Below, in pieces: positions 42,901-45,900 of a stretch of DNA of 64,000 bases. Position numbers and translations under genes: made by a program. A model generated the notes under the pieces. That model saw only the letters and a program-made list of their open reading frames with translations, did no database searches and was not told the origin of the DNA. The stretch covers positions 159,009,328 through 159,073,327 of the forward strand of contig OZ020587.1 in the NCBI GenBank assembly GCA_963971535.1, written 5' to 3'. How positions within the stretch are numbered: position 1 is the first letter of the stretch; each line of letters begins with the position of its first letter. The stretch comes from Notolepis coatsorum (Eukaryota > Chordata > Actinopteri > Aulopiformes > Paralepididae).

Positions 42901-45900
42901 ATATATTACATTACATTACATTAGAATAGATTACATTAGATTACATTAGATTAGATTACATTAGAATGGATTCGATTAAAATGTATTGTCATCATACAGC
43001 ACAAGTACAGTACAACGAAAAGAAGTTTGGCATCCAACCAGAGTGCAAATGTAACAGTAAAGTGCGATAGTAATATACAATGTACAGGTGATTCAAAATC
43101 ACACCTGAATACACAACACTGAGGTCTGAACCCACCTAGGTAGCTGTTAGCTCTGAACCCACCTAGGTAGCTGTTAGCTCTGAACCCACCTAGGTAGCTG
43201 TTAGCTCTGAACCCACCTAGGTAGCTGTTAGCAGGCACAGGCACTAGGTCAGGATCCAACAGGTTCTCATCTCCAACTTCAAACGGGCCGTCGTCATAAA
43301 AGCCCATCTCCAACAACGTGTTGTTCTTCTGTTCTGCTCTTACCACACCTGATATAGATAGATAGATAGATAGATAGATAGATAGATAGATAGATAGATA
43401 GATAGATAGATAGATAGATAGATAGATAGATAGATAGATAGATAGATAGATAGATAGATAGATAGATAGATAGATAGATAGATAGATAGATATAAAGGTT
43501 TAGTATGGGGAATCAAATTCCAACAAAAGAAACATATTTAAATCAATCAGAAGAGCAAACGGTGTACAAATATGAAAGCCAAGTTTACAGTAGCATCCTT
43601 GGCCTCTAGAGAGTCTAGAGGACAGTGTAACTCAAAGAGAGACATACTGACATTCTCAGCCGGCGTCGAGGGACGGACAAGCCCTTGTTCCGGTATTTCA
43701 TTATGACTAGGGCTGGGCCGCGTGATTTTTTTTCGTAGCCTCAGTTTGCGGAGACGTTCTCTGATTGGCCACTGACGTTTCTGGTCATGTGACATGTGCG
43801 CCCAATCGTGTGACGCCTGTGTCTTTGCCCATTTCCGCCTCGAACAGCATGCAAACTACCTAACGCCTAGTTTATCACTGGTTAAGCTTAGGCGACTCTT
43901 TCGAAGTTGGTTAAGGTTAGAGTTTGGAATCAGGGCTGGCGTTCTATCGCCCTGCTCTAAGACAAACTCTAACCTTAACCAACTTCGAAAGAGTGCCTAA
44001 GCTTAACTGGTGAAAGAAACAGGCGTCACACGATTGGCCGGACATGTCACACGACCATAAACGTCAGTGGCCAATCAGAGAGCGTCTCCGCAAACTGCGG
44101 CTACGGAAAAAATCACGCGGCTGGGCCGCCTGTAGCTGTTCCGCAACCGTTCCTACTTCCGGGGTAGGCCTGATTGGCCGCGACGGCCACGTGACCAGGC
44201 GCGGCCACGCCCCGCGGCAGAGGCCGCTGTGTTGACGCTAGGCTGCTGTGTTTCCTGGTTGTCGCGCCGCGGTAGTCAGTTAGTTCTGTGTTCCGTGTTG
44301 CAATAAACGTTCAACGATGTCAACAAAACGGTATCTTATTACGGCTTTCCTCCCGACGACAAAGAGAAGAGAAGGTGGCTGAAGCCTGAAGTTGATACAG
44401 TAAGTTTGATCGCGGTCTCGTGACGACCAGAAAGAATACAAAACATTACCTGTTGTTATTGTTAAGTCGCTATCTTGTGATAGTAGCATGGTCGTGGTGT
44501 GAATTACCTATACCCTAATTATATTTATTCTTAATGTAGCCTACTGTATATATCCACATGTGTTTGTACATATAACTGCATATAATCCTTTTACATATCT
44601 GTAGATACTACGCTATCTATATCTGTACATATCCCTTACCTACTCTTACTAGTTACGCTGCTGGCCAGTATGACTACCATAGTGTCTTTATACCTGCTGC
44701 ATCAATGTATATAATAATACTACAACTCTGTACATACATATGATCTGATTAGCATTATTACTCAGTAGTACTGATTTATATATTTTAAACAATATAATGA
44801 ATTAAGGTTTTGTTTTATTTGTCACATAAGGCATGGCCGCCTAGTTATAGTTGAAAGTGGGGGTGCAAGATTTTTTTTTATTATTTTTTTTTTATTTTTT
44901 TTATTTTTATTTTTGCAAGGGGCAGATTTTTTTACATTTAATGAACACCTGTATGTGCAATTTCCTGCAATATAGAGCCTTCAATCTTGACCAAAATAAA
45001 GCTGCTCTTTTCACTATAAAACTCAGTTTATATTGCAGTATGATAGCTATAATAATAATAACTTCACTGCGAGGGCTCTTTTAGCTAACGCTAGCTAGGC
45101 ACGTATGATAGCCAATTACTATTATAATAATAATAACTTTCCCATCCTCCCAAAGCCCCTCCGGCCCCGTTCTCATCCGCAGCGGCAGTACAAAACAACA
45201 ACAACAACTAATTGACGCTATCAATAGCCCCAGTGAGCGCGGCGGCTGAATGAATGAATGAATGAAAACTTTATTTAACAGATTGCAGAATGGGTACAAT
45301 ACAGTACGGCTCAATACACACAATTGTTAAGGGGATGCAGACCAGAGAAAGACGTTTGTCTTGTTTACATCAGGGTCCATACTAGCCCCTTTCGTGACTG
45401 AGTGAATCCACAGTCACTTGCTCCTCAATGGGAAACCAACCTAGATTTACCATGAAGGACTGGTTCTGGCCGAACCGTTCGTTATACAAGTATCACAGAG
45501 ACATTACAAAGGTGCTCACAGTTGCACGAGGGGTTCGCACAGAGATACGGGATGGTTTGAAAGCTCGGCGTTGCTAATAAATATTTTTTTATAAACTGCT
45601 CAAAGCGGCATTATTTCCACCGTTGGGTGATCACAGCGCCTGCGCAGTGCGCACCATCCCGTATCTCTGGATTCACTCGGTTCAGCGCCGAGGCTCACCA
45701 TACGAGAAATATTCAGTTTCAATCTGTTTGCGCATTTAGTATACACTAACTTACGTGATGATTTGCTCCATTTTGATGTAAACGCAGAAGAATAATCCTC
45801 ACAATGTTATCCAATATCCAGCCTGAATTTTTCAAGGGCTTTCGAAAAAGCCGCCTCCCCCAACATGTCGTATACGTCATGCCGACGAACCGTGGCCCGT

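Follow-up and report, generated by a model that had tools for sequence, protein, structure and literature searches.

Four exact tandem copies of a splice-donor unit at the 3′ edge of an integrin alpha-6-type X1 exon

An X1 exon that ends in a 27-bp array

We analysed a stretch of 64,000 nucleotides (G000:C8:159009328-159073327), referred to here as the window, which carries an integrin alpha-6-type gene on its minus strand. A tblastn search with an approximate human alpha-6 query recovered 11 stop-free alpha-6 coding segments in the window at E <=0.01, including 53862-53587, 43352-43215 and 42423-42205, together with further alpha-6 segments in the flanks on both sides. Three coding exons concern us here, with splice borders marked throughout by a slash:

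53589..53850, minus strand: preceding coding exon (TCAHRY...NWK), with the donor AAAG/GTCAGG
43217..43348, minus strand: X1 exon of integrin alpha-6 type, 132 nt when spliced from donor 1, phase 1 at both ends
42209..42422, minus strand: next coding exon (FSLDTG...), with the phase 1 acceptor CTCCAG/GC and its own donor GTGGGT

When joined at the first of the donors listed below, these three exons align with the human alpha-6 chain (7ceb) over their whole length (E 2.6e-90), the next-best chain being alpha-4 (E 4.4e-12), which confirms the sequence-only reading of an alpha-6-like integrin exon. The frame of the X1 exon plus array, taken by itself, matches the same human chain at E 5.6e-12. That reading had placed the exon next to the X1-type region of such a receptor; the gene is indeed of alpha-6 type, but the alignment identifies the exon as X1 itself, with the DGPxEVG strand present as DGPFEVG (DGPYEVG in human alpha-6), the exon end lying before FSLD, and phase 1 on both sides upon in silico splicing. 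Its label of 'exon 2' is correct for the window, in which this is the second alpha-6 exon, but not for the gene, where it is about the fifth, because upstream of it there are an exon-1-like match and matches to exons 2 and 3. Scanned against Pfam, two splice products each matched FG-GAP alone, below the threshold (10.7 and 9.8 bits, cut-off 22.1).

At its 3′ edge, the X1 exon runs into a tandem array in which the donor is repeated:

43125..43232, minus strand: four exact 27-bp tandem copies, each with exon end and splice donor (Tandem Repeats Finder)
43215..43216, minus strand: GT of donor 1; intron from 43216; ancestral ANSYLG/FSLD junction
43188..43189, minus strand: GT of donor 2; intron from 43189; 9 added residues
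43161..43162, minus strand: GT of donor 3; intron from 43162; 18 added residues
43134..43135, minus strand: GT of donor 4; intron from 43135; 27 added residues

Tandem Repeats Finder described the array as having a period of 27, 4.0 copies and 100% matches, which places it, at 4 x 27 bp, among minisatellites by size (units of about 10-100 bp). The minus-strand sequence of every copy is GCTAACAGCTACCTAG/GTGGGTTCAGA, comprising 16 exonic and 11 intronic bases. A search of the window allowing <=3 mismatches returned exactly four copies of the unit, all with 0 mismatches and on the minus strand, compared to a mean of 0.00 matches and a largest count of 0 in 100 shuffles, so that the four exact copies across the exon border noted in the initial reading were recovered by both programs. 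In the whole assembly (3.42 Gb, 4,787 contigs), the exact 27-mer has four matches, all of them in this array; exact parts of the unit had 0 matches in genome_contigs and 0 in viral_contigs, as expected for an animal gene. The number and exactness of the copies are far beyond chance. Their identity could reflect a recent expansion; continuing homogenisation would look alike.

The four donors (TAG/GTGGGT) are identical 9-mers with identical scores and identical predicted U1 pairing. Their starts are 27 nt apart, within the 30 nt that separates successive same-type sites in the definition of tandem alternative splice sites given in PMC8055015. With an approximate donor matrix, each of the four scored 4.32, and other GTs around the exon scored 4.33 (43348), 3.97 (43343) and 3.91 (43104); the GT at 43348, which scores like the four donors, sits at the X1 exon's own start, and splicing from the one at 43104 results in a frameshift leading to a stop. 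GTGGG also begins two of the eight other scored donors of the gene, namely those after the next two exons. Spliced in silico to 42422, donors 1 to 4 yielded exons of 132, 159, 186 and 213 nt, and all four products are open in one common frame, with 0, 9, 18 and 27 extra residues in units of GFRANSYLG; unspliced read-through beyond X1 meets a stop after 132 codons. Two further statements of the initial reading, that every copy repeats the exon end ANSYLG together with its donor and that any of the four donors preserves the frame, hold on the sequence and on these spliced products. Alignment of the donor-1 product to human alpha-6 (7ceb) left no gap at ANSYLG/FSLD, therefore indicating that a single ANSYLG is the ancestral, conserved state of the protein, and that copies 2-4 are additions.

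Repeats around the exon

Two further arrays flank the X1 exon:

43354..43492, minus strand: pure (CTAT)n array, 34.8 copies, 139 bp, 6 nt from the X1 exon edge
42458..42978, minus strand: degenerate ATTAG array, 521 bp, taking up most of the intron that follows X1

Repeats contain or adjoin three splice signals around X1, namely the X1 acceptor, the donor inside the 27-mer array and the next acceptor, 36 nt away from the ATTAG array. The 249 nt before the X1 acceptor, made up in part of the (CTAT)n array, contain no AG, and the closest YTNAY word begins 148 nt upstream of that acceptor; the X1 branch point may be unusually distant or lie inside the CTAT repeat. In humans, exons with a long AG-free zone can have a remote branch point and undergo cassette splicing more often, and the same paper describes one case in which such a zone was made by accident through an AG-less repeat (PMC1431707). 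Two other AG-free runs on the window's minus strand exceed 249 nt, and the intron after X1 contains 34 branch-point-like words (CTAAT or CTAAC) on the transcript strand.

Across the window, the 90 rows reported by Tandem Repeats Finder were merged by hand into 64 arrays, 40 of them with a period of >=10; merged arrays make up 18.2% of the window, and one of the 20 exon edges lies inside an array. When the 40 arrays were placed at random, at least one straddled one of the 20 exon edges in 87% of trials, a figure to which the large arrays probably contribute most, and the location of the 27-bp array on an exon edge was therefore rejected as evidence. Elsewhere in the window, a 25-bp unit occurs in two arrays about 1 kb apart, at 16366-16517 (6.1 copies, 100%) and 17519-17625 (4.3 copies, 98%), a pairing that is a sign of minisatellite turnover or segment duplication.

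Choice among four equal donors

The X1 exon follows an intron of 10,240 nt (53588 to 43349) and precedes one of 794 nt from donor 1, or 713 nt from donor 4, and by these intron lengths it belongs to the exon-definition class of PMC9225289, where the switch to exon definition is placed at an intron length of 200-250 nt. In the long-intron class, near-equal donors in human cells showed a preference for the upstream site, and in five minigenes built with two identical donors and 365-nt introns, splicing occurred exclusively from the upstream one (PMC9225289). In human cells given two consensus donors, splicing predominantly took the first, across contexts (PMC6783452). In its methods, the latter paper lists the hexamer GGTGGG as a silencer when it stands between tandem 5′ splice sites, and this hexamer is found in each of the four copies. 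Without matching for donor strength, the downstream donor was preferred in about 60% of events, with a downstream majority in every intron class, and the classical in vitro work summarised in the same paper favours the downstream donor (PMC9225289). Extending to an array of four donors these rules, which derive from human cells and two donors, and weighing the equal-donor experiments above the fold energies given below, we expect donor 1 to dominate and donors 2-4 to be silent or minor.

We thus lean, with some confidence, towards a four-copy in-frame duplication at the X1 exon edge of which mainly donor 1 is used, the array being mostly silent. The array would be explained by slippage during replication, or by unequal exchange, in a genome rich in repeats, with the palindrome ACCTAGGT that every unit carries perhaps contributing. 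Given the long introns on both sides and the probable recognition of X1 as an exon, the spliceosome would most likely commit to donor 1, which is nearest to the acceptor across the exon, yielding the ancestral ANSYLG/FSLD protein, with the other copies staying intronic and the three longer products appearing at a low level at most. Stray use of a downstream donor would be harmless to the frame, since every donor keeps it and ends in ANSYLG before FSLD; the product would still be open, and the array could persist. A second in-frame tandem duplication (24 bp, 2 copies, 88%, FGAASLNI FGTASLNI) is present in a downstream coding exon, about 17 kb past the low end of the window (L009:2713-2761), and has no counterpart in the approximate human protein sequence with which it was compared; because this repeat lies inside an exon and would be translated, the gene seems already to have accepted one such in-frame duplication.

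It is possible, albeit rather unlikely in our assessment, that several donors are substantially used and that the number of units varies between individuals, such that the laminin-contact region varies by 9-residue steps. The four donors are equal and in frame, and exact tandem arrays of this kind are prone to length change. We take human alpha-6 X2 to join at the same NSYLG/FSLD junction and itself to end in NSYLG, as does every extra unit in the array, and because X2 would join there in the human protein, insertions at this junction would be tolerable in principle. An insert would directly follow X1, where the human alpha-6 X1X2 form has X2 (PMC8241838, PMC12564407), and it would do so next to a region, I193-L235, that contacts laminin LG2 and is mobile in the ligand-free state, K199-V227 being disordered apart from one strand (PMC8241838). 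Cutting 7-8 residues from the mobile flanks of X1 left expression unaffected and resulted in no meaningful laminin binding (PMC8241838).

Several observations argue against such variable use of the donors. Equal tandem donors in long introns favour the first (PMC6783452, PMC9225289), and GGTGGG, listed as a silencer, stands between the donors (PMC6783452); the predicted use of the first donor is, moreover, the outcome that the sequence-only reading itself had named as contradicting a splice choice. Selection against in-frame tandem sites has been described, for shifts of 3, 6 and 9 nt, and is strongest in ordered regions (PMC2279118); the insertion point here is probably just outside the disordered stretch, as X1 ends at L235. 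The minor alpha-6 form with X2 after X1 (PMC8241838) is rare and similar to X1 in ligand specificity, and forms with beta-1 only given beta-4 co-expression (PMC12564407), so inserts may not be harmless. Tolerance is thus not assured, because the junction lies beyond the disordered stretch and the X1X2 form is restricted.

A tblastn search of the window and 120 kb of flank with approximate alpha-6 and alpha-7 X2 peptides gave no convincing X2 exon among the matches listed. The best listed alpha-7 X2 match in the window (E 0.020, 55083-55169) is on the plus strand, opposite to the gene, and the best listed on the gene's strand (E 0.20, 43259-43188) falls on X1 plus the array; with alpha-6 X2, the top match listed had an E of 0.17, on the plus strand. 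It may be that the gene has X1 alone; tblastn could overlook a diverged X2. A more far-reaching proposal, in which a heritable, copy-variable donor array sets the length of X1, all four donors being partly used to give between 0 and 27 residues ending in NSYLG like X2, and slippage tuning the isoforms within a population, appears doubtful to us.

There is a small chance that the copy number is an assembly artefact. An exon-1-like match about 55 kb away (L011 about 3730-3840; two segments at E 0.008 among the tblastn matches listed) contains a stop and frame changes within about 100 bp, while all 23 of the other listed coding segments at E <=0.01 (11 in the window and 12 in the flanks) are free of stops over about 107 kb, a pattern that local consensus errors would give. 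Such damage, limited to a single exon while the rest of the gene is open, resembles a local fault in the assembly more than it does gene decay, and we take it as a caution on assembly quality or gene status. The four exact copies, however, span 108 bp, which is within reach of any long read, and the 6.1 copies of the 25-mer form another exact array in the same window.

We consider it very unlikely that the last, intron-proximal donor is favoured and that the normal protein has a fixed insert of 27 residues, made of three GFRANSYLG. This outcome would follow from the intron-proximity rule for intron-defined splicing and from the downstream preference seen before strength matching (PMC9225289), but the downstream intron, at 713-794 nt, exceeds the 200-250 nt switch to exon definition (PMC9225289), and equal donors favour the first (PMC6783452, PMC9225289). 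RNA folding points weakly towards downstream donors: the predicted opening energies of donor 4 and donor 1 were 7.8 vs 9.8, 10.3 vs 10.5 and 7.3 vs 12.6 kcal/mol, making donor 4 easier to open by 2.0, 0.2 and 5.3 kcal/mol in the respective span settings, and giving it the lowest energy of the four in two of the three settings, with donor 3 the lowest in the other.

Separately, we rejected the idea that an odd or even number of units frees a donor, as the trend was opposite to expectation. The idea was prompted by CUACCUAGGUGG, which every unit carries and which is able to pair with its counterpart in a second unit. The array alone folds at -46 kcal/mol, against an average of -35.06 kcal/mol for its shuffles (z -3.01; as good in 2 of 200); the whole exon region folds no better than its shuffles (z -0.25; 73 of 200 as good). 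With 1 to 7 units modelled, the easiest donor was predicted to be cheaper to open with even than with odd numbers in all three settings, the sole exception being 4 units vs 1 unit at a span of 100, and a single donor was already costly to open (predicted 8.8 to 12.5 kcal/mol).

We find it highly improbable that the gene is a decaying copy and the array neutral noise in it; the stop and frame changes in the exon-1 match and the splice signals in or near repeats around X1 would fit decay, but damage should spread, and none of the 23 other listed segments has a stop, while both alternative cytoplasmic-tail-like segments are present among the listed matches (one only at E 2.6). Least credible, to the point of being negligible, is a recursive splicing step or, along the lines of models in which tandem duplication creates introns, a nascent intron built on the AG/GT repeats (copy 1 GT to copy 4 AG, 81 nt), which would draw on the CTAG/GT in each unit and on the potato RdRp gene, where a tandem duplication across an intron-exon border made a new intron (PMC4974935), but for which the unit has no polypyrimidine tract by eye and nothing requires an extra intron, as the mRNA would equal the donor-1 product.

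Comparison with known systems

The locus provides a natural series of four identical 5′ splice sites in identical 27-nt units that differ in transcript order, an arrangement close to designed libraries asking whether order or proximity decides donor choice. If only the first donor is used, this would be a clean natural case of first-donor preference, in which a repeat crosses an exon edge harmlessly; if several are used, the ligand-contact region of a receptor would vary in length by minisatellite slippage.

Tandem alternative splice sites, border-crossing duplications and X1/X2 variation are each already known; a literature search of open-licence papers found neither a four-copy array of identical natural donors nor a minisatellite containing the splice donor itself. 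Tandem alternative splice sites (NAGNAG, GYNNGY, GYNGYN) are likewise clustered and make small changes to the product, but the well-studied ones lie a few nucleotides apart (2-12 in TassDB2), whereas here whole 27-bp units of exon end and putative donor are present four times. The duplication in the potato RdRp gene also straddles an exon edge and multiplies splice signals, but it affects the acceptor side and its new intron was detected (PMC4974935), whereas the array described here affects the donor side, has four copies and is known from DNA alone. Minisatellites (VNTRs) in genes are similarly in-gene tandem arrays whose copy number is possibly mutable; unlike them, the present array itself holds the splice donor. 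Finally, the X1/X2 exons of integrin alpha-6 and alpha-7 involve the same exon, X1, and the same place after it, where X2 is added; that system adds a separate exon, whereas here the extra sequence would come from the repeated donors of one exon.
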